A stretch of DNA of 39,834 nt, taken from contig JAJYCL010000027.1 of NCBI GenBank assembly GCA_021778415.1, forward strand, positions 1-39,834, read 5' to 3'. The notes under the pieces were generated by a model that saw nothing but the letters and a program-made list of their open reading frames with translations, was not told the origin of the DNA and made no database searches. Source of the DNA: a bacterium (GTDB lineage Bacteria; Vulcanimicrobiota; Vulcanimicrobiia; Vulcanimicrobiales; Vulcanimicrobiaceae). Position numbers and translations under genes: made by a program. This document shows, piece after piece, positions 14,043 to 25,898 of this stretch (the first letter of the stretch is position 1; the number at the start of each line of letters is the position of its first letter).

Positions 14043-14849
14043 ATTTTTTCCCGTCGAGATGAACGCAGACTCTTTGGACTGATCCTCGTGATTATTGCTG
14101 CTGCATCATTTGCGTTGTGGCAAATTTCTGCTGCGCGCGGTGGCGCGGCAACGCCAATCGGATCATTCATCGCATCCATCGTTACGGGCATCGAGGCCGG
14201 AACATCCTACGTGACCAATGGTGTCCGCGCTTTCGGCACCTCCGTGGTGAATCTCCCCAATCTCAGCCGGGAAAACGCCACGTTACGCGCGAGCAATGCG
14301 GCTCTTGCAGAGCGTAATGCTCGTCTGCTCAACGAACTCGCATCGTATCGCGAGCATCTCGCCTTGCGGCCTCTCTTGGAACGCGACCCACACGCCATCG
14401 AAGCGAGCGTTATCGGATTTCCCCCGGAAAATGAATCGCGCACCGTCACCATCGACGTCGGCTCACGCAACGGCGTTCATAAAGATGACGGCGTCGCAAC
14501 GGCGCGTGGAATCGTCGGTCGAATCGTTGCAGTGAACGAATTTTCCAGCACGGTCTTACTCGCAACCGATTATACGAGCCGCATACCGGCGGTGATACGA
14601 CGCGGCCGCTGGTGGGGAATAGCGCGCGGCAATCTCACGTCGATTCGCATTGAATTCATCTCGCAAGATGCCCACTTAAAAATCGGCGATACAGTCGTTA
14701 CCGGCGAAGGGCGCTCGTTTCATGCTGGTCTCGTCATCGGTCGCATCATCAAAATCGAACGGAGCGATGAACTCCTCTATCAATCGGCAATCGTAAAACC
14801 CACCGTCGATCCGGGCGCGTTAAATCGCGTCGTTGTCCTTGCGCGCTAA
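14043..14849 (+). CDS. mreC: Rod-shape determining protein MreC (start codon uncertain, probably non-canonical)
   Basis: Periplasmic scaffold of the elongasome, linking MreB/MreD to PBP2. It has a membrane segment (RLFGLILVIIAAASFALWQI), a coiled coil (LSRENATLRASNAALAERNA) and two beta domains (EASVIGFPPENESRTVTIDV, GVATARGIVGRIVAVNEFSS, GDTVVTGEGRSFHAGLVIGR). The first conventional start, GTG 14088, would cut the membrane helix in half and lose the charged SRRDERR before it. The frame stays open back to the stop at 14019. An ATC/ATT pair at 14040-14045 lies seven bases after GGAG. I give the ATT at 14043, and CTG 14079 is another option. Gene identity is certain; the start is not. Confidence 0.9.
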   Translation: MFSRRDERRLFGLILVIIAAASFALWQISAARGGAATPIGSFIASIVTGIEAGTSYVTNGVRAFGTSVVNLPNLSRENATLRASNAALAERNARLLNELASYREHLALRPLLERDPHAIEASVIGFPPENESRTVTIDVGSRNGVHKDDGVATARGIVGRIVAVNEFSSTVLLATDYTSRIPAVIRRGRWWGIARGNLTSIRIEFISQDAHLKIGDTVVTGEGRSFHAGLVIGRIIKIERSDELLYQSAIVKPTVDPGALNRVVVLAR

Positions 14850-15360
14850 GATTCCGAGCACATCGCACAGCGAACCGGCCTGGTGGACCACGGGGCTGTG
14901 GCTCGTCGGCGCATTGATTGCGCAAATTCTCCTTGCGGCATTTGTGAATTTCCGCGATGCGCGGCCAAGTGCATTTCTCGTCGTGACGGTGTGGTATGCG
15001 GTGCGCGTCGATCCATGGCGCGCAGCACTCTTCGGCTTCATCGGCGGATTGCTTGAAGACGGCCTCGCCGGCGTTACCGGTGGCGCATTTGCCGTGAGCA
15101 CGGCGATTGCCGGCGCACTCGCAGCGATCGGTTCGCGCGGATTTTTTGCCGACTCGATTCCGATTGTCACCCTGATCGCATTCTTGGCCTCATTTGCCCG
15201 TCTTATCGTTTTTTGGGTCATCATGGCGATCCAGGGATACCCAGCCGGAATGGGTCGCATTCATCTTCATGAGGCCGTATGGCAGGCACTGTTGAATGCC
15301 GGGTTTGCGGCGCTCGTTATTCTCGTCGCACGTCGTTATAGCCCCACCAACGAACCGTGA
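14839..15360 (+). CDS. mreD: Rod-shape determining protein MreD
   Basis: Integral membrane elongasome component with about five membrane segments in 173 residues (WLVGALIAQILLAAF, ALFGFIGGLLEDGLAG, IPIVTLIAFLASFARLIVFW, ALLNAGFAALVILVA). The family landmark FIGGLLEDGLAGVTGG matches the usual GlxxDl... region. Starts available are TTG 14833 and TTG 14839, both inside the end of mreC; I chose 14839 but either is possible. The stop overlaps mrdA as GTGA. Confidence 0.88.
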   Translation: MRAKIPSTSHSEPAWWTTGLWLVGALIAQILLAAFVNFRDARPSAFLVVTVWYAVRVDPWRAALFGFIGGLLEDGLAGVTGGAFAVSTAIAGALAAIGSRGFFADSIPIVTLIAFLASFARLIVFWVIMAIQGYPAGMGRIHLHEAVWQALLNAGFAALVILVARRYSPTNEP

Positions 15361-17234
15361 GCGCGCCGTACTACCGCCGTAGCGGGCGATGGGAACGCCC
15401 GACGGCACGGATTATCGTGTTCATCTGCGGCGTTATTCTTTTGCTTGCGGTGTTGGTAATGCGCTTAGCCGATGTGCAACTCGAACACGGCGAGATGTAT
15501 CGCAAACAAGCCCAAGAAAACCAAGTTCGCCTTATTCCGGTCGCTGCACCACGCGGCCTGATGTATGATCGGCATAACACCGTTTTGGTGCGGAGTCGTC
15601 CATCGTTTGTCGTCGCCGCAATCCCATCGGAACTCACCGATGTCACAACCGAATTTGCGACGCTGGCAAAGGCCATTGGCGTTCCCGCACCACGATTACA
15701 ACAACGCCTGTTCCACCATCGCGGGATCAACTACACGAGTTTTTCGGAACTGCAAACCGATGAGCCGTACGGCCCGGTCATTCTCGAACGCAATCTCAGC
15801 GTGGCGAATGTGGCTCGCGTCTCGGAACTCCTCGGTGATTTGCCGGGCATCGATCTTGAGGTCCAGCCGATTCGCGATTATCCGATGGGAACGTTTGCGT
15901 CGCATCTCTTCGGCTATGTCGGGGCAATCACCGAAAATGAATATACGCGGCTCAAATCGCAAGGCTATTCACCCAATGACGTTCTCGGCAAAGACGGCTT
16001 AGAAGCCGAATATGATCGCTATTTGCGCGGTGAGCCTGGCGGCCAGCGCATCGTTGTGGACGCGACCGGTAGCGTCGTTCGCGGCGCGAAATTGCCATCC
16101 AAGGCTGCAATTCCGGGTGACGCGCTCCAACTGACGATCGACTGGCGATTACAACATATCGCGGAAGTCGCAATGGCCAATGAATTGCTGACGCTCGGCC
16201 GACAAACCGGACGCAAGCTTTCCGGAGCCATCGTTATTGAAGATCCGTGGAGCGGCGCAATCCTTGCGCTGGTGAGCTATCCGAACGTCGACCCCAATAA
16301 ATTTGCGTTAGGCATCGATTCCAAAACGTTTTCCGGTTATCTCAACGATCCCGCTCAACCACTCTTCAATCGCGCCATCGATGCCGCGACGCCAACGGGA
16401 TCGACATTCAAGCTCGTAACGGGAACGGCGGCCATTAGCGAAGGCGTGATCGATCCCAATAAACCGCTCTACGATAATGGTTCCTGGAACTGCTTCGGTG
16501 CGCAATTTCGCGATTTGGTCAGCGGCGGTTTAGGAGAGACGACCTTCGTTCCGGCGCTCGCCGCATCCGAAGATGGGTACTTCTATCAGCTCGCAACGCG
16601 TTTACGCAACGCACGATTGCGCAAATGGGCGCTGCTCTTTGGACTCGGAAAACGAACGGGCATCGATCTTCCCGGCGAATATGCGGGGAACTGGCCGACG
16701 AATGCGTGGATGATGAAACACGCGGGTCTTCCGCTTGAACCCGCCGATGTTTGCAGCTTGGCCATCGGTCAAGGTGCAATGCAAGCAACGCCATTACAAA
16801 TGGCCCAAGTTGTCTCGGTGGTCGTCAACGGCGGAACACTATACCGGCCCCGCGTCGTTCGCGAGATCCTCTCACCCAAAAATCACATCATAAAACGTTT
16901 TACCCCGACGATCATTCGGCACGTTCCAGGAACGCCCGAGGCATTTTCTGCCGTACGTGCCGGTATGGCGCAAGTCACGTCCGCCATCGGAACCGCGTAC
17001 GGCCTTGCTATACCGGGCTTACCATTCGGTGGAAAAACAGGAACGGCAGAAACAGCCGGCGGCAGCGGCCCAAATACGACCTGGTTTGTTGCGTTTGCAC
17101 CGGTGAAACATCCTAAACTCGCCATGGCTATTTATGTTGAGCGCAGCGGAAGCTACGGGGCGAGCGTTGCAGGCCCCATCGCCCGCAATATTCTTATGCA
17201 GTATTTCCGGGTTTCAACGCCAGCGCAGAAATAA
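15357..17234 (+). CDS. mrdA: Penicillin-binding protein 2 (peptidoglycan D,D-transpeptidase)
   Basis: Class B PBP that crosslinks peptidoglycan during side-wall growth with MreC/MreD and RodA. The 625 residues have an N-terminal membrane helix (RIIVFICGVILLLAVLVMRL), a dimerisation domain (~55-230) and a transpeptidase domain. The catalytic motifs are STFK (Ser349), S404-E-D and K560-T-G in GGKTGTAET. The second motif ends in Asp instead of Asn, as I recall for other PBP2 proteins. Start GTG 15357 overlaps mreD. The 3' end runs 41 bp into the oppositely transcribed gene below. Confidence 0.96.
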   Translation: MSAPYYRRSGRWERPTARIIVFICGVILLLAVLVMRLADVQLEHGEMYRKQAQENQVRLIPVAAPRGLMYDRHNTVLVRSRPSFVVAAIPSELTDVTTEFATLAKAIGVPAPRLQQRLFHHRGINYTSFSELQTDEPYGPVILERNLSVANVARVSELLGDLPGIDLEVQPIRDYPMGTFASHLFGYVGAITENEYTRLKSQGYSPNDVLGKDGLEAEYDRYLRGEPGGQRIVVDATGSVVRGAKLPSKAAIPGDALQLTIDWRLQHIAEVAMANELLTLGRQTGRKLSGAIVIEDPWSGAILALVSYPNVDPNKFALGIDSKTFSGYLNDPAQPLFNRAIDAATPTGSTFKLVTGTAAISEGVIDPNKPLYDNGSWNCFGAQFRDLVSGGLGETTFVPALAASEDGYFYQLATRLRNARLRKWALLFGLGKRTGIDLPGEYAGNWPTNAWMMKHAGLPLEPADVCSLAIGQGAMQATPLQMAQVVSVVVNGGTLYRPRVVREILSPKNHIIKRFTPTIIRHVPGTPEAFSAVRAGMAQVTSAIGTAYGLAIPGLPFGGKTGTAETAGGSGPNTTWFVAFAPVKHPKLAMAIYVERSGSYGASVAGPIARNILMQYFRVSTPAQK

Positions 17235-17631
17235 TCCGCGCATCGTCTTCTTGCGCGCGAACGCGTTCCAGAACGCTCCGTGACCATGATGAATCTAAGA
17301 CAACAAGTCGCTCGATCATATCGAGTTTCTCATCGAATTCGACGTCAATCGAACTCCCGACAATGTCGTACGTCCATGGCAAAGCCTCTGAGCTAGCCGG
17401 CACGTGTGGTGGGCTCGGTGGAGGCGACGCAACCAGCGGTTCTTGTAGGCCAAGGATCGCTCGTGCGCGTGGGTCGACGGATTCTCCTGTTTGCGTATTC
17501 GATGCACTATTACCCGGCATCCATGATGACAGAACGTCGGCATATCGGACGAGGAGCGTGCCCGCAATAAAGACCAGCAGCCCGGCCGAGAAGGCAACAA
17601 CAAGGGCGAGGGTGAGACTATTTGATGACAA
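17194..17631 (-). CDS. Small single-pass membrane protein of the repeated module (copy 2)
   Basis: No known family recognised. The 145 residues have one N-terminal membrane helix (LTLALVVAFSAGLLVFIAGT), then a Pro-rich linker (ASPPPSPPHVPASSEALPW) and a helical C-terminus (FDEKLDMIERLVVLDSSWSR ... ARIISALALKPGN). That tail lines up with the tail of the small protein at 21040-21444: both carry EFD, L-LD, S-S/R-S and a closing ISALA/VSLAA, like one HEAT-type helix pair. Basic residues after the helix suggest a cytosolic tail. The start is TTG at 17631, 14 bp inside the upstream giant gene; no ATG or GTG lies nearby. Its 3' end overlaps mrdA convergently. Confidence 0.7.
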   Translation of the reverse strand: MSSNSLTLALVVAFSAGLLVFIAGTLLVRYADVLSSWMPGNSASNTQTGESVDPRARAILGLQEPLVASPPPSPPHVPASSEALPWTYDIVGSSIDVEFDEKLDMIERLVVLDSSWSRSVLERVRAQEDDARIISALALKPGNTA

Positions 17632-20600
17632 GATGCGCTGCGGTGCGCAGCGTTTGCAGCACCGCGGTAAGCGCATCGTCAAGCGTACGATTGACGCTTG
17701 AGGCTAGCACGCGATGAAATTCGTCGAGCGGTAGCTCGCTGAGCACTCCAAAGATGTCTAAGAGTTGTGCGCGATAGGATGCGATTGCCGTATCGATTCC
17801 ATCGTCCGTCGTTATGCTTGTCCCCAAAACCTGAGCGTTGATCATCCACGGAGTTGCCGAACCGATTGGCGAGGCATCCAACTCCGCGAGCAACGGCTTA
17901 AACGTCGCTACATCGACGCTTCCTTCGATACGCAAATTGCCTGCGGCCCGCGGCGGCAGCGTCTGCGCCGGATCGGCCGAAAAAAGACGATCGGTGGCGC
18001 GCCGCAATGCCAGGCGAGCATCACGATCCTCTAAATCCTTACTGGTGATCGTCAACCTTGGCATACGCAAGCGTACAAAGAGTCGTTCCAACGGCGCGCG
18101 CATCGCTAAACCGGCGCTCATCAAGGCCTCATCGTGCGACGGAGTCGCACCGAGTAAATGCTCGGGAAACAATGAACGCAAGGCAAAGAAGTGCGCGATG
18201 AGACCGCCGCCGGCATCGGCGCGCTCAAGCAATCGCACGATACTCGCTACGCGTTCGGGAGCAAAATCCGCGTAGAGAACCGCTCGTTCGGCCTGAATTT
18301 CATGATCATGCGTGACCATCTCCGGCTCCGGCTCGCGCATAATTTCCGTCGCCCAGAGCGGTTGTTCTTCGGTGATGTTTTCATTGAGACGACGTAGCGC
18401 ATCGGGCATATCGTCGGGCTCGACTTCGTCTTGGGCGTGCGATGCTTCAAGCCCAGCGGGCTCTTCATCAAGCGGCGCAACCGTTACCGTAAAGACCGGC
18501 GGTGCGACATCGACGTGCGGTGGACTCGGAAGTGCGACTTCGGCTTCCGGCGGAGCGCTCACCGAAGACTGTTCCGGCGCGAGAACGGGCAACGTTCGCG
18601 CGACGGAAATCGGCGTACCGAGCGTCGATTCTACGAGCGACGGTTGGGCCTCAACGCGCAACGAAGGCGCAACGAGCGCAAGCGAAGCGCCACCTTCCCA
18701 TTCGACGACGGCACGCGTTTCGATTGGCGTTCCGGCGGTGAGCGGTGCGACGACAAAGGCTTCGAACCGAATGTGCAATTCTGCACCGGGATCGATATCG
18801 GTGAGGGCAAGGCCGCGATTCGACCACAGTTGCGAATTCCCACCGTCATCTGGAATGACCATTCCATTGATCGATGTACTCGACGGAACATAGACGATGA
18901 GATTGCTGGGAATCGCGCGGACAAGCACCTGATCGGCGGGGCCGTCACCGTCATTACGCATGCGCAATTCATAGAGCACTCGTTCGCCGGCATTCACCGA
19001 ATCGCGCGGCGTCGAGAAGAGACCGGCCGTGCGTTCGAACTCAGGAGCGGCAAATGTGACGAGATCGAGCGGAGCGAGTTGAATGGCGCCAACACCGCGA
19101 CCGGCTAAGATACTCCCGATGGAGAGCGTCGTACCGCGCGGCATCGGTTTGGTCAGTCGCACCGTGACGCGAGCTTCATGCGTCACGCCGGAACCGATAT
19201 CGGCAAAGGCGACACCATCACGATCTCGTCGTGCATCTTGAGCGCGATCGATCACCACTTCCGGTGGAAGTGCGATACCCAACCGCGCTTCACGCAAAAC
19301 ATCCGACCCGGTATTTGTAAAACGAATGAGCAGATCGGTCGTCTGGTGCGGACGCAACGGCTCGCTCGATTTTCGTTCCCAGGTTACGGCATCGACATCG
19401 ATGCGAGGGCGCGAACGCACGACCAACATCGACGTTCCGAGATCGAATGTGCCTTCGGGATAATCGAGAATCGCGCCGAGCGTGACCGACGCTCGGTCCG
19501 GAATTGGCGTCGCGATACGACCTGTTACGACGAATGAGCGCACGCGGTGCGGAGCAATCGTTCCTAGCGCATACGGTTCGGCGACGGCGACGGGCGTTGC
19601 ATCCCCATCGGCGATGCGCAGCGATTCAAGATACGCGCCCGGCACGAGGCGTAAGCGCGCATCAGGTTGCGCTGCCGTACCGTCGTTATAGATTTGGATC
19701 TCAAAAGAAATCTCTTCGCCGGCTTGCGCGAGACCACGCTGCGTCCGAATATAATTGCGCGAACGATGGAACCGCGACGCCGTCTTCATCGTGAGATTCC
19801 GCGAAAACGATCGAGAACCGCCGCGCCAACGCAGCGTCGCTTCGATAGGCAGCGCCATATCGTCACCCGAGGGCAACGCAACGGTAGCAATGCAACCCAC
19901 TTCTGTGACGCGGCCCGGCGCAATTGGCCCGAGAACGTAATTGAGCGGCCCATCCGGTTCACCGATCGGCTGACCATCGATATGTGCCGTTCCCGGTGCA
20001 TACACTAAACCGGCGGGAAGATTTAAGGTGACGGCGCCTTCTTGCGCTCGGCCCGTTCCGCCGTTCATCGCGCGAACAACAATCGGAATACGCGTACCCG
20101 GCGTCACGACATCGTCGCAAAACAACGCCATTGTCGTTTCGTCGTTATCGAACTCCGGAGGCGATTCAACGACGATATCCGAGGAAGCGATCGGAAACTC
20201 TGCCGTTTGACGCGACGATATCGCGCCGGTTGCTTTTATGCGCGTTTGATCGTCGAGCGGAGAATCGATCTCCGCTTGATATTCGACGAGCAGTGATTGC
20301 CCCGGCGCAAGCCGTTCGGAAACGATCGTCGAGGTGATGAAATCGAAAGGCTCGTCGCCAACGACGTTGAGGACGCGGCCGCCAACGCGAGCACTACGTG
20401 CAACATACGTGGTGTTTTCGGGAACGGGAAGCACGGCAATAACATCGTGTGCGCTTGCGGTGCCCGTATTGACGATCGTTGCGCGGATAGAGATCGTATC
20501 GCCGGGATGCGGATGATCCGGCGCAATGAGCGTCAGTAATGATTGCGTATTCCGTAACTCGGCAATGCTCTGCGCTCGAACGCGCTCGACATTCGATCCA

Positions 20601-21001
20601 ACGATCGGCGTACGATCACCAACGACAGCGACCTGAAATGCGAGTTCCGTTCCGTCTTCAATTTCCGAATCGACAAGGAAAGAGCACTCGACGCGACACT
20701 GCTCTCCCGGCGCAAGGTTCGGAACGGGGGCACCGTCGCCATCGATGAATCGCGCGCCCTCGGGGAGCTCGGCGCCATCGGCACGATCGGCGTCGGCAAT
20801 ATGCGTAACACCGGGTGGTGCCGCGAAGCGAACGCGCAGTCCCGTTGCCGGGGCACCGCCAAGATTGGTAAAGGTGAACTCGGCACGGAGCGTCTCACCC
20901 GGGCGGACCCGACGATGCGGCGAGAGGACGAGCGTACGAAGAGACTCCACCAATGCGGGGGAGCCTGGGGAAAACACGCCAGTCAGCGACGCTGCAGCCA
21001 C
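17618..21001 (-). CDS. Giant DUF11-type repeat protein with C-terminal helical domain (copy 2)
   Basis: A 1,127-residue protein of unknown function. After a short leader (SLTGVFSPGSPALVESLRTL) it has six beta-sandwich repeats of 110-130 residues (~28-765). They show the DUF11 pattern: a start such as PGETLRAEFTFTNLGGAPAT, then TYVARSARVGG, VYAPGTAHIDG or VYVPSSTSING, then an IAPG or DIDPGAEL turn. A Pro/Glu-rich acidic linker (~770-890) leads to a helical domain (~890-1127, LIAHFFALRSLFPEHLLG, RLFVRLRMPRLTITSKDLED). Repeat for repeat it matches the protein at 21441-24644. There is no signal peptide, unlike typical exported DUF11 proteins. The GTG at 21001 follows GGGAAGAGAG and lies 38 bp after the preceding gene. 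Confidence 0.85.
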   Translation of the reverse strand: MAAASLTGVFSPGSPALVESLRTLVLSPHRRVRPGETLRAEFTFTNLGGAPATGLRVRFAAPPGVTHIADADRADGAELPEGARFIDGDGAPVPNLAPGEQCRVECSFLVDSEIEDGTELAFQVAVVGDRTPIVGSNVERVRAQSIAELRNTQSLLTLIAPDHPHPGDTISIRATIVNTGTASAHDVIAVLPVPENTTYVARSARVGGRVLNVVGDEPFDFITSTIVSERLAPGQSLLVEYQAEIDSPLDDQTRIKATGAISSRQTAEFPIASSDIVVESPPEFDNDETTMALFCDDVVTPGTRIPIVVRAMNGGTGRAQEGAVTLNLPAGLVYAPGTAHIDGQPIGEPDGPLNYVLGPIAPGRVTEVGCIATVALPSGDDMALPIEATLRWRGGSRSFSRNLTMKTASRFHRSRNYIRTQRGLAQAGEEISFEIQIYNDGTAAQPDARLRLVPGAYLESLRIADGDATPVAVAEPYALGTIAPHRVRSFVVTGRIATPIPDRASVTLGAILDYPEGTFDLGTSMLVVRSRPRIDVDAVTWERKSSEPLRPHQTTDLLIRFTNTGSDVLREARLGIALPPEVVIDRAQDARRDRDGVAFADIGSGVTHEARVTVRLTKPMPRGTTLSIGSILAGRGVGAIQLAPLDLVTFAAPEFERTAGLFSTPRDSVNAGERVLYELRMRNDGDGPADQVLVRAIPSNLIVYVPSSTSINGMVIPDDGGNSQLWSNRGLALTDIDPGAELHIRFEAFVVAPLTAGTPIETRAVVEWEGGASLALVAPSLRVEAQPSLVESTLGTPISVARTLPVLAPEQSSVSAPPEAEVALPSPPHVDVAPPVFTVTVAPLDEEPAGLEASHAQDEVEPDDMPDALRRLNENITEEQPLWATEIMREPEPEMVTHDHEIQAERAVLYADFAPERVASIVRLLERADAGGGLIAHFFALRSLFPEHLLGATPSHDEALMSAGLAMRAPLERLFVRLRMPRLTITSKDLEDRDARLALRRATDRLFSADPAQTLPPRAAGNLRIEGSVDVATFKPLLAELDASPIGSATPWMINAQVLGTSITTDDGIDTAIASYRAQLLDIFGVLSELPLDEFHRVLASSVNRTLDDALTAVLQTLRTAAHLVIK

Positions 21002-21039
21002 GTCATCTCTCTTCCCTCGGTTCCTGAACAGGCCCTGTT

Positions 21040-21444
21040 TTAATCGCGGTCGATATCGAAAAGTTGAAGCGCCGCCGCCAAGGCATCGCTTCGCTCGCCG
21101 GGATGCGCGCGTAAGTACGCACTCACATCGGCCTCTCGTCCGCCGGCCACAAGCCCGCGCGCCGCTGCCAAGGAGACGACGCCCGATTCATCGGCGAGCG
21201 CATGTTCCAGCAAGGCACTGGAGCGTTCATCGTCGAGAAGCGCGATGGAAAAGAGCATTTCACAGCGCGCGTTTTCGGAGAGTCGATCAAACTCCGCAGC
21301 GGAATCGCGATCGAAGCCGCTGCGTTCGCCGTCGCCCGTATCGGTTCGGGGCGGCGCTACCGGCACCGTCTTTTGTCGGGCCGCAAAACGGGCCACCAAA
21401 AGAATAGCGACCGCGACGATCACCAAAACGACGGCGATGATCAT
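21040..21444 (-). CDS. Small single-pass membrane protein with HEAT-like tail (copy 1)
   Basis: A 134-residue protein with an N-terminal membrane helix directly after the start (MIIAVVLVIVAVAILLVARF), followed by basic residues (ARQK), a polar linker and a helical tail. The tail (EMLFSIALLDDERSSALLEH, ESGVVSLAAARGLVAG, ADVSAYLRAHPGE) has the look of one or two HEAT repeats. The positive-inside rule places the tail in the cytosol. The ATG at 21444 overlaps the giant gene's stop (ATGA), so the two are translationally coupled and probably made in fixed ratio. A longer reading from further upstream would lie inside the giant gene and bury the helix. It is the counterpart of the protein at 17194-17631. 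Confidence 0.75.
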   Translation of the reverse strand: MIIAVVLVIVAVAILLVARFAARQKTVPVAPPRTDTGDGERSGFDRDSAAEFDRLSENARCEMLFSIALLDDERSSALLEHALADESGVVSLAAARGLVAGGREADVSAYLRAHPGERSDALAAALQLFDIDRD

Positions 21445-24400
21445 GAGGCGGCGAGAAGTCCCAGGCGAGCGCGCAGGACGGCGAAGGCCGCCGAGGCGGC
21501 CGGGGCCGGTTGCGTCACCAAGAGATCGGCAAACTCCGAAGCATCCGACGAGGCACACGACTGCAATGCGGCGATGAGCGATCCGCGATAATTGGCCGCT
21601 TCCGGTGAATCGTTCGGAAGCAAATGCGCAAGCGCACTCCACATAGCGGCCGACGGAGCCTCGTGCAACGCGTCGATAGCCGCTTTCATTTCATCGCGCT
21701 CAATGACGGTCCGTAAAATGATGCCGTGATCATGCGGGGCCGACGGCGTTCCGCGAGCATGGACGACATCAAGTAAGGCTCGCTCGACCGCTCCGCGCAA
21801 CGATGCAGAATCGATATCGCGCACCGTCATCGTGAAGTTGGGGAGCCGCAAGCGAATATAAATGCGGTCCAAATGATCGCGTAACGCTTGACGGGCGGCG
21901 CCCAGCGCCACGCTATGCGCATCCCCTGCTTGATCCGGAAGAAGCGCACGAATAACAAAGAGGTGCCCCACGAGTAATCCGAGATCGAGTTCATCGAGCA
22001 TGCGCATGGTGCGTTCCGCTCGCTCGGAACGCAAGGCAAGTTGCAGGACGATGGAATCGGCTTGCACTTCTTCGGCGTCTACGCCATTAAGGGAAAGCAT
22101 CGGCGACGCGCCGATCGCGTGCCGCGCTCCATCGCCGACCCCATTGTTCACGGGAGTCGCCGGCGGCAGTTCCAGATAGCGCGATTCGGTCAAAGCTCGC
22201 GTAGCAACAAACGATGGCCCAACCATTCCATCGACACCAAACGGCAATCCCGGAATCGTGTTTGCAAACACCGGTGTTGCGCGAACTTTGATCTCCGACG
22301 AGAAGAGTTCGTCGCGACGATCTCCATCGTAGATGATCGTCGCAATACGCGTGATGCCGATGCCGGAAGTTAAGCCATTATGAATGACGTCGCGCCAACG
22401 AATCGTCACCTCAACTCCGGGATCAACATCGCTTAAGGTTATTCCGCGGTCCAGCGTAAACGGTGCATGCGCCCCCGTATCACGCAGCGGCACATCATTA
22501 ACCGTCGTGGAATTGGGAACATAGATCGTCGCTTCATTTGCATCGATATGAATCTGAACACGTCGCGCCGGGCCATCGCCGCCATTGCGAACGTGCAGCG
22601 CCCATTCAATCATCTCACCGGCATCGGCCGAATCAGCCGGTTCACTCCGGAACGTTCCGATGGAAAAATCGGGCTCCGCAGCGGTGGCAATCGTTAATCG
22701 CTCCAGCGGCAGCGGCTCTGCAGCATTTGCACTGATCACGCCGTCAACCGTGACCGGATACGCTTTTGCAAGACTTCGCAACAGACGCAAGCCCAATCGC
22801 GCTTGCGCGCGGGCACCCGGCGCAATCTCACCAAAAAGCAGCGACGATCGATCACGCGTTGCCCCGTCGACGGTTTCCAATCGCGCATCCGGAGAGACGT
22901 ACAGACGCATCCGAACATCGTGCGCAATATCCGTCCCTTCGTTCGCCATGACGACATCGACCGACGCAATGCCGTTGGGTCGCAATACGGCATCATCAAG
23001 CAACGTAAGGTGCGAGTTCTGTACGGTAAAGGCGGGCTGCGAATGAACCAACCAGCGCACATCGCCTAGCGCAATCTCGCCCAATTCATGCGTATGCAAA
23101 CTTGCCGCAATTTGCAATTCCGTGCGATTTGCATGAGGCGACCGAACGCGCCCGCGAATCGCGAGACGACGGGTACCGAAGGCTTCAATCGTTCCCAAAG
23201 AAACGCTGTCATCATCCTGTTGCAGTCGCGTTGCCTTCTCGTAGATGCGCACGTCATCAAGACCGCTATCGCGCACAATGCGCACGACGCAATCAGTGGC
23301 ATCGGCACTCCCGTCATTCACGAGCGTCAACGTCGCCTCGATATCATCACCGGGAGCTACCGTCGTAGCCGCGCTTGGCGACAAGATATTCTTGCGCGGC
23401 GAAAAGGCCGGCAACGAATGAACCGTCACGCTTCGCTCGAAGCGACGCTCGCGCTTTGCGCCCCAATGAATCGTTGCGACCGCATGAAGCACCGTTGCAT
23501 CGGCAATCGGCGAGGCCACCATTGCATCGATGCGCATCTCAATGCTTTCGCGAGCGCCGATCTGCCCGAGTTCAATGGCGGTCGCCTCTTTTTTGCGCTC
23601 GCGCAACGGCTTGCCATCAATACGAAGTGAACCGCGCACAGGTAAAAGACCCTCGGCAAATTCGACCGTAACGCTAACATCGTCGGCCGCCGCACTGCCG
23701 GCGTTCATTGCAACCAGCGTCAAACTCACCAACGAACCGGCAAAGACATCGGTTGCGGGTTCAAGGGCACACGTCGAGCGGTCGTCGCTAAAATCAGCCG
23801 ACGATGAGACGGTGAGCGATGCCGGCGTGAGATCGAAGCCAGCCGTTTCCTGAGACGCAACCCTGGCCGTTGCAACGAGCCGCGTCCCGTCCGGCAAAGG
23901 ATCATCGATCCGCACCTTATAGGACAGCGTTCCGGTAGCACTTGCCGCCAAGGTTGGCGCAACGACGGGAGCATGGATGCGATCGAAGGCCGATCCCAAG
24001 TCTCGCTCGAGTTCGCGCCCATTCATGCGCGCAGAATTGGCGACATAGACCGTGTGCTGCGGGATGGGTGCGATGACGACGACATCGTGAGCGCTGGATT
24101 CCCCGGCATTATGGATGCGAACCGTCACCTGCGCTTCGCCGCCCGGCCGGGCCTCGCGCTGCACCTCAAGTGCCACGCCGGTAAGCGCATTGTCGAGCTG
24201 AGGTTTACTGCGGGCGATCAGCCGAACGACGTTCGAGCCGACCGGCGCGACTTCAAACGAGGCAACCGCGGCTTGCAGTTCGACCGTCGACCCATTCTCG
24301 ATCGCTCCGGCCACCGAGTAGGCAATCTCTATTCGGCGCTGCTCGCCGGGCGGGACATCACCGATGGCCGCCCCGGCTCTGGCCAACAAGGGCGAGTTCC

Positions 24401-24644
24401 CGAGATCGTCGTCGAGATCGGCTCCATCGAGCGTTCCGCTCCCAACAAGATAGACGAGTCCATCGGGGAGATTAAAACGAACGCGAACTCCACTTGCCGT
24501 CGCCCCACCTTGATTGGTAAAAGCGAACGAGGCTCGAACGGTCATCCCAGGTTCCAACTCACGGTCGGGCGAAACGACGAGCGTTCGCAACCCTTCTGGT
24601 AGCGTCGGAGCTCCGGGCGCAAAGACTTCGGTCAGGCTGCGCAT
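21441..24644 (-). CDS. Giant DUF11-type repeat protein with C-terminal helical domain (copy 1)
   Basis: A 1,067-residue protein, full-length paralogue of the one at 17618-21001. The leader MRSLTEVFAPGAPTLPEGLR parallels the other copy. Six beta-sandwich repeats (~20-785) include SFAFTNQGGATASGVRVRF, VYVANSARMNGRELERD, IYVPNSTTVNDVPLRD and LSDVDPGVEVTIRW, the hallmarks of DUF11. A spacer of ~70 residues then leads to the shared helical domain (~853-1067, LLVGHLFVIRALLPDQAGD, RIYIRLRLPNFTMTVRDID). No signal peptide or membrane helix is visible. ATG 24644 is chosen because upstream in-frame codons are antisense to the aminotransferase and because it aligns with the paralogue's start. DUF11 repeats are usually structural or adhesive, but here export is not supported. 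Function unknown. Confidence 0.85.
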   Translation of the reverse strand: MRSLTEVFAPGAPTLPEGLRTLVVSPDRELEPGMTVRASFAFTNQGGATASGVRVRFNLPDGLVYLVGSGTLDGADLDDDLGNSPLLARAGAAIGDVPPGEQRRIEIAYSVAGAIENGSTVELQAAVASFEVAPVGSNVVRLIARSKPQLDNALTGVALEVQREARPGGEAQVTVRIHNAGESSAHDVVVIAPIPQHTVYVANSARMNGRELERDLGSAFDRIHAPVVAPTLAASATGTLSYKVRIDDPLPDGTRLVATARVASQETAGFDLTPASLTVSSSADFSDDRSTCALEPATDVFAGSLVSLTLVAMNAGSAAADDVSVTVEFAEGLLPVRGSLRIDGKPLRERKKEATAIELGQIGARESIEMRIDAMVASPIADATVLHAVATIHWGAKRERRFERSVTVHSLPAFSPRKNILSPSAATTVAPGDDIEATLTLVNDGSADATDCVVRIVRDSGLDDVRIYEKATRLQQDDDSVSLGTIEAFGTRRLAIRGRVRSPHANRTELQIAASLHTHELGEIALGDVRWLVHSQPAFTVQNSHLTLLDDAVLRPNGIASVDVVMANEGTDIAHDVRMRLYVSPDARLETVDGATRDRSSLLFGEIAPGARAQARLGLRLLRSLAKAYPVTVDGVISANAAEPLPLERLTIATAAEPDFSIGTFRSEPADSADAGEMIEWALHVRNGGDGPARRVQIHIDANEATIYVPNSTTVNDVPLRDTGAHAPFTLDRGITLSDVDPGVEVTIRWRDVIHNGLTSGIGITRIATIIYDGDRRDELFSSEIKVRATPVFANTIPGLPFGVDGMVGPSFVATRALTESRYLELPPATPVNNGVGDGARHAIGASPMLSLNGVDAEEVQADSIVLQLALRSERAERTMRMLDELDLGLLVGHLFVIRALLPDQAGDAHSVALGAARQALRDHLDRIYIRLRLPNFTMTVRDIDSASLRGAVERALLDVVHARGTPSAPHDHGIILRTVIERDEMKAAIDALHEAPSAAMWSALAHLLPNDSPEAANYRGSLIAALQSCASSDASEFADLLVTQPAPAASAAFAVLRARLGLLAAS

Positions 24645-24701: not shown

Positions 24702-25898
24702 ATGCTTGCTACAGCCACCGACCGTATTTCCTCTGCCGTCGCGCGCCTCGGCGCCGAGAACGCCTTCATGGTCCTTGCCCGTGCGCGCGTACTCGAAGCC
24801 CAAGGGCGGCGCATCGTCCACATGGAGGTCGGCGAACCGGATTTCGATACGCCGACGCATATCAAGGACGCGGCGATTGCAGCATTACACGAGAATTATA
24901 CGCACTACTCGCCATCGACGGGCATCAACGAACTCCGCGATGTCATCGCTGAGTACGTCAGCCGCTTCCGCGGCATTACGCCGGCCTACACGCGCGATAA
25001 TGTGACGGTCACGCCGGGCGCAAAACCGGTGATCTGGAATATTATGTCGGCGATCATCAACCCCGGCGATCATTTTGTCTATTTCAGCCCAGCCTATCCG
25101 GCGTACGCGTCGGCGGCAAGTTATTTGCAAGCCGATGTCACGGCGATTCCGCTGCACGAAGCGGCCAACTGGCGCCCCGATCTTGATGAGCTCGACCGCG
25201 TTGTCACGCCGAAAACCAAAGCGATTGCGATCAATTCGCCGCACAATCCAACCGGCGGTATTCTCACGAACAGCGATCTCGAACGCATCGCCGAGATCGC
25301 CATTCGCAACGATTGCTTGGTTATCGCCGATGAAATCTACAGCCGCAATTTTTATCTCAGCGAAAAATTCGTTTCGATTGCTAGCCTTCCGGGCATGCGC
25401 GATCGCACGATCATCGTCGATGGTTTTTCAAAAGCCTACGCCATGACGGGCTGGCGCCTCGGATATGCCGTGATGCCGGAAGCCTTGCAAAACGTCGTGA
25501 CGCTCTTTAATAACAATACGTTCTCCTGCGTCGCAACGTTCGTACAACGCGCCGGAATTGCCGCACTCACCGGCCCCGATGAACCGGTGCAGAAAATGAA
25601 TGCGATATTCCGCGAACGTCGCGATCGCATCGTCTCCGGCCTCAATGCCATTCCGAACGTGAGTTGCACCCTTCCCGAGGGCGCATTCTACGCGATGCCC
25701 AACATGACGGCGATAACGCACGACGATAAAAAACTCGCGAGTTTCTTGCTCGAAGAAGCCGGCGTCGCATGTAATGGCGGTTCGGCCTTCGGCGCCGCTG
25801 GCAAAGGCTACATTCGTTTTTCCTACGCCGCGTCGCTCGACGACATCGATCTGGCCTTAGCGCAAATCGCCAAGCATCTTCCGCACTACAAAGACTAA
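24702..25898 (+). CDS. Class I pyridoxal-phosphate aminotransferase (aspartate aminotransferase-like)
   Basis: Transfers amino groups between an amino acid and a 2-oxo acid using PLP. The 398 residues follow fold type I subgroup I: MEVGEPDFDTPTHIKDAA near the N-terminus, YSPSTGINELRDVIAEY, SPHNPTGGILTNSDLERIAE (substrate and PLP contacts), ADEIYSRNFY (Asp binding the pyridine N, Tyr), the Schiff-base lysine in DGFSKAYAMTGWRLGYAV and the substrate-carboxylate Arg in KGYIRFSYAASLDDI. This is the Ib branch that contains bacterial AspC/AspB. Exact substrate (aspartate, alanine or a longer chain) cannot be settled from sequence. It is transcribed away from the giant repeat genes and followed by a cluster of dyads. 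Confidence 0.93.
   Translation: MLATATDRISSAVARLGAENAFMVLARARVLEAQGRRIVHMEVGEPDFDTPTHIKDAAIAALHENYTHYSPSTGINELRDVIAEYVSRFRGITPAYTRDNVTVTPGAKPVIWNIMSAIINPGDHFVYFSPAYPAYASAASYLQADVTAIPLHEAANWRPDLDELDRVVTPKTKAIAINSPHNPTGGILTNSDLERIAEIAIRNDCLVIADEIYSRNFYLSEKFVSIASLPGMRDRTIIVDGFSKAYAMTGWRLGYAVMPEALQNVVTLFNNNTFSCVATFVQRAGIAALTGPDEPVQKMNAIFRERRDRIVSGLNAIPNVSCTLPEGAFYAMPNMTAITHDDKKLASFLLEEAGVACNGGSAFGAAGKGYIRFSYAASLDDIDLALAQIAKHLPHYKD

Follow-up and report, generated by a model that had tools for sequence, protein, structure and literature searches.

Tandem gene pairs for an Ig-like (DUF11) array protein and a HEAT-like membrane protein in a Vulcanimicrobiota genome, with relatives in type IV pilus operons

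Two gene pairs between pbp2 and an aminotransferase gene

The window analysed here, 39,834 nt in length, is one contig of the 2.59-Mb genome of an uncultured soil bacterium of the Vulcanimicrobiota. Between pbp2 and an aminotransferase gene it carries two tandem copies of a module made of a large and a small gene, all four on the minus strand and read in the order B-large, B-small, A-large, A-small (Table 1). A first-pass annotation of this DNA had placed the four genes correctly, and it had also noted that in both copies the small gene overlaps the end of the large one. We observed that the start of A-small overlaps the A-large stop by 14 nt and that B-small overlaps the stop of B-large by 4 nt, lengths that occur more often than any other among the pairs of relatives (4 nt in 24/82, 14 nt in 8/82). 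The 3' ends of the convergent pbp2 and A-small genes share 41 nt (window 17194-17234). In genomes that have no module, the aminotransferase gene adjoins pbp2 or is near it.

Table 1. Genes and domains of the two pairs and their flanks, in window positions
Feature	Position	Strand	Remarks
A-large, Ig-like DUF11 array and C-terminal domain	17618..21001	(-)	1,127 aa; GTG start; no signal peptide or TM
A-small, one N-terminal TM helix and HEAT-like unit	17194..17631	(-)	145 aa; TTG start
B-large, six Ig-like domains, disordered linker and C-terminal domain	21441..24644	(-)	1,067 aa; ATG start
B-small, N-terminal TM and HEAT-like domain	21040..21444	(-)	134 aa; ATG start
Six Ig-like (DUF11) domains of B-large, residues 22-787	22284..24581	(-)	AlphaFold2 model and Pfam
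C-terminal domain (CTD) of B-large, residues 864-1067	21444..22055	(-)	no Pfam match
CTD of A-large, last 225 codons	17621..18295	(-)	
Flank: mreC, mreD, pbp2	14088..17234	(+)	convergent with A-small; synteny conserved
Flank: class I/II aminotransferase	24702..25898	(+)	divergent from B-large

The large proteins had been described as matching repeat for repeat. Aligned end to end, A-large and B-large are 31% identical over 1,009 aa (E 3e-123). Pfam DUF11 matches A-large at 61.5 bits and B-large at 97.4 bits (curated cut-off, 24.6), and NCBIfam TIGR01451 matches the large proteins at 78 and 81 bits (cut-off, 24). An AlphaFold2 model of B-large (mean pLDDT, 82) contains six Ig-like beta-sandwiches at residues 22-787, a disordered linker at 790-861, and a mostly helical CTD at 864-1066, in agreement with the six repeats and helical C-terminus read earlier from the sequence. 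The CTD matched nothing in Pfam, and neither Foldseek nor VIA gave a known fold for it when queried with the whole model of a natural fusion protein (see below) rather than the CTD alone. Neither A-large nor B-large has a sequence match to PF22544, the HYDIN/CFA65/VesB Ig family; matches to that family were found only in two distant arrays, L066 and L134.

The small proteins were said to share a similar tail. Pairwise BLASTP does not bear this out (E 18, no significant alignment between A-small and B-small), but profile comparison by hhalign does (E 1.9e-5 over 62 columns). An A-small HMM recovered 29 of 36 B-small proteins at E<1e-3 and none of 410 shuffled decoys. In the longer small proteins of other lineages, an A-like unit comes first and a B-like unit last. 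It looks as if A-small and B-small each arose by shortening of a single ancestral TM and HEAT protein, an order of events that we infer from these comparisons. Like HEAT-repeat proteins, a long-form small protein (L118) matches HEAT_2 (PF13646; E 2.6e-5, under the Pfam cut-off), and the modeled HEAT part resembles HEAT structures in VIA at a Z of about 7, a middling value; the match of B-small to HEAT_2 has an E of 0.033. Unlike HEAT-repeat proteins in general, the small proteins fall below the Pfam cut-off, are short and membrane anchored, and are paired with a CTD protein. We call them HEAT-like on the basis of this sub-cut-off match and these middling structural matches.

Conservation, rearrangement and predicted location of the pair

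Our first search of the phylum covered 149 genomes. A query with a single protein had found no relative; searching contigs with an alignment did, and the CTD was detected in 82 of the 149 genomes, every one of which belongs to family f1 or its sister f2. Pairing was counted over 96 non-redundant CTD genes, none of them truncated at a contig end. A TM and HEAT open reading frame directly follows the CTD gene in 82, and in 3 more the partner has no standard start codon (85/96 together). Eight further CTDs are already fused behind a small protein, one (L063) has a downstream partner with a HEAT-like segment but without a TM segment, and two (L044 A and L079) have no small partner downstream. The clearest exception to pairing is L044:4697-7954, where A-large is intact and no small partner can be recognised after it.

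A quick tree separates A from B, each as its own clade (99 and 100% SH-aLRT). The duplication is therefore old, and a recent duplication is ruled out. A is dispensable: many species retain B alone, and others retain just the CTD of A. In this respect the first-pass annotation needs correcting. In most f1 genomes that have A/B pairs, these lie between pbp2 and the aminotransferase gene, and other copies of the pair occur at unrelated loci. At L052:4450-14297 (also L064, L136, L140 and L141), a diverged pair adjoins a Crp-like regulator, a GGDEF protein and priA; in L052, the locus in which neighboring gene families were checked, clpX lies on the other side. Genome G008, a single contig of 3,508,363 bases whose GC content is about 69% across the loci examined, carries two module copies, L051 and L052.

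Three natural rearrangements bear on how the parts may be joined. One genus has lost the Ig repeats of A and carries the A-CTD joined to the end of B-small, as a TM-HEAT-CTD protein (L102:10198-11376; similar in L098, L099, L105, L107, L113, L117, L120 and L130). The model of this fusion is confident for the TM, HEAT and CTD parts (pLDDT, 87), while its pTM of 0.61 does not fix their arrangement. In another genus, A has no Ig repeats, yet the CTD and A-small are kept (L050, L077, L080 and L085). In G028 (L049), a TM segment runs straight into the Ig array, and the protein has neither CTD nor HEAT part. Together, the rearrangements point to a CTD-HEAT tether, in which the HEAT and CTD parts would be in contact.

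The L049 gene (L049:6833-9994) encodes an Ig array with its own N-terminal TM segment, followed by an Arg, and has no small partner; it may be a TM-to-array fusion. Its TM segment is 27% identical to the G028 small protein over 146 aa, with an E of 9e-8 obtained without composition correction, which is only suggestive.

Across 28 species, B-small distances correlate with both CTD distances and Ig distances after the flanking genes are accounted for (partial r, 0.70 each; permutation p, 5e-4). As a comparison of sequence distances, this correlation shows joint variation in rate, not contact. The working large-small partnership suggested earlier is well supported: the two genes stay adjacent and overlapping in relatives, natural fusions occur, the parts are retained together, and their rates are correlated.

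A hydropathy scan of the large proteins found neither a signal peptide nor a TM segment at their tight, conserved start. On either side of the small-protein TM segment, Lys and Arg residues average 2.65 after and 0.23 before, with more after in 81 of 82 proteins. By the positive-inside rule, this charge pattern places the HEAT part in the cytoplasm, and the small protein is predicted to be single pass with its N terminus out and its C terminus in. Since the large proteins lack an export signal and the HEAT part has a cytoplasmic-type charge pattern, the DUF11 array looks like an intracellular structure, a prediction that places it inside the cell rather than making it a surface stalk. A surface adhesin was rejected because of the missing export signals. 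DUF11 is usually counted among the stalk domains of fibrillar adhesins (PMC9210967). The window proteins belong by score to the same Ig-like repeat family as these DUF11/TIGR01451 stalks; they differ from them in having no export signal or wall anchor, a CTD without a Pfam match, and an obligate-looking HEAT-like membrane partner.

Relatives of the pair in type IV pilus operons

In eight genomes, from several genera that have no pair at the mre locus, the pilQ gene of a pil operon is followed at once by a homologous, diverged CTD gene (L203, L205, L235, L237, L238, L239, L241 and L243). A HEAT partner comes next in six of the eight (L203, L205, L235, L237, L239 and L241), followed in L203, L239 and L241 by a PilT-like ATPase. 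An HMM of the long-form small proteins of other lineages matched the five pil-operon HEAT proteins tested at 2e-20 to 2e-12, which identifies them with the same pair as the module. In the CTD tree, the pil-operon CTDs group with the CTD of L063, whose protein retains an Ig array. The pil-operon relatives are a shortened version of the module set among type IV pilus genes; the pairs of the window itself are not in a pil operon.

We then compared the distribution of the module with that of the pilus secretin PilQ over 103 genomes of f1 and f2. The module is present in 62 of 64 PilQ+ genomes and in 23 of 39 PilQ- genomes, counts that include three diverged copies (G016, G022 and G130). Among the 58 high-quality genomes, it is present in 36/36 PilQ+ versus 13/22 PilQ- genomes (Fisher p, 4.7e-5, a value that ignores relatedness); four of the nine absences in high-quality PilQ- genomes come from one genus. 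Where the only copy stood in the pil operon, its disappearance together with the pilus is trivial. The telling cases are the genera g36, g25 and g12: here a pair sits outside the pil operon, some species lack it, and every species lacking it is PilQ-. No T4a-type PilC arrangement occurs in the PilQ- genomes tested; they have only a paired T2SSF arrangement, probably Tad-like to judge by spacing and open reading frame sizes, or none. In family f3, PilQ is present and the module is absent. Strict dependence of the module on type IV pili was rejected, since 13 high-quality PilQ- genomes retain it.

B-large is broken in two PilQ- genomes, by a stop in G004 (L060:5851-9085) and by an internal deletion in G085 (L244:756-1953). 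In both, the small gene beside it is still readable.

A candidate cytoplasmic scaffold and its alternatives

We propose that the module encodes a cytoplasmic scaffold tethered to the inner membrane, most likely one that assists the type IVa pilus machine or serves it as a docking site, a reading that we hold with about as much confidence as doubt. The small protein would anchor in the inner membrane by its single pass, and its HEAT-like domain would bind the CTD of the large protein. The six Ig-like domains would form a rod, held by the CTD through the flexible linker so that it lies alongside or beneath the cytoplasmic face. The duplicated copies at the mre locus would be paralogues of the pair encoded inside the pil operons of related genera, and scaffolding, as well as a pilus role for the window's own copies, is what we infer.

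Might a tethered cytoplasmic scaffold instead serve rod shape and cell wall synthesis with MreBCD-PBP2, or another envelope task? The position of the A/B pairs in most module-bearing f1 genomes and the 13 high-quality PilQ- genomes that retain the module would both fit such a role. However, the pair is convergent with pbp2 and hence not co-transcribed with it, many genomes have the mre cluster and no module, other copies sit at unrelated loci, and the only co-directional operon seen with functionally assigned neighbors is the pil operon. Proximity to mreC-mreD-pbp2 was set aside as vertical inheritance, the genes being convergent and the locus often empty. We consider a role in rod shape or another envelope task unlikely. 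Vertical inheritance of an operon could also account for adjacency by itself, with large and small proteins that form no complex: much of the order shares one ancestral locus, and the proposed complex is deduced from comparing sequences. Against this stand the occurrence of the pair together at several different loci, its fusion in one genus, and the joint survival of the CTD and small protein where Ig repeats are lost, which make inheritance alone quite improbable. Least probable, and by our estimate very much so, is export of the large protein to the cell surface, as an attached stalk or adhesin that the small protein anchors. The usual role of DUF11 speaks for such a stalk; the lack of a signal peptide at the conserved start, the HEAT domain predicted to be cytoplasmic in 81/82 proteins, and the Arg right after the TM segment joined to the Ig array in L049 speak against it.

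The proposed pilus scaffold resembles known systems in part. FimV and TspA are inner membrane scaffolds of type IV pili, single-pass proteins with a cytoplasmic helical-repeat domain, linked to PilMNOPQ. Compared by description only, the small protein is likewise single pass with a predicted cytoplasmic helical-repeat domain, but it has no Pfam-reported LysM or TPR, is HEAT-like instead, and has a separate Ig-array partner. The HYDIN/CFA65-type cytoplasmic Ig (ASH-like) arrays of cilia also form a tandem Ig array inside the cell, and central-apparatus proteins are the top Foldseek matches of the array studied here (E 1e-26). The window proteins differ in lacking a PF22544 match, and the structural match may reflect tandem Ig folds alone.

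Distant DUF11 arrays without a visible signal peptide were seen in the same phylum (L066:3957-12141) and in a record labelled Melainabacteria (L134:1456-9957). Both adjoin an AAA_22 ATPase and a FlhB C-terminal-like gene, L134 also a FliK-like gene and a sigma factor, and downstream of L066 there is a weak match to the CTD (E 3e-5). This neighborhood suggests a flagellar-export link in distant relatives, a possible lead toward a broader role in motility machines. More tentatively, bacteria may have cytoplasmic Ig-array scaffolds as a class of their own, tethered through coupled CTD and HEAT parts and working for motility machines that span the envelope, with type IV pili served in this order and the flagellar export apparatus in the distant arrays.

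Our literature search found no description of a cytoplasmic DUF11/HEAT system, and the earlier statement that no system with this layout has been described stands as far as such searches could tell. What the present analysis adds to it is that the Ig-array protein has no export signal and that relatives of the pair lie in type IV pilus operons. DUF11 is generally treated as part of extracellular stalks; here a conserved family appears to be intracellular, coupled to a membrane HEAT-like protein via its CTD. If the pilus link is true, an unrecognised part would be added to the type IV pilus machine of the Vulcanimicrobiota. The idea is testable, because Vulcanimicrobium alpinum, the first cultured species of the phylum, glides toward light by type IV pili (PMC9758169).
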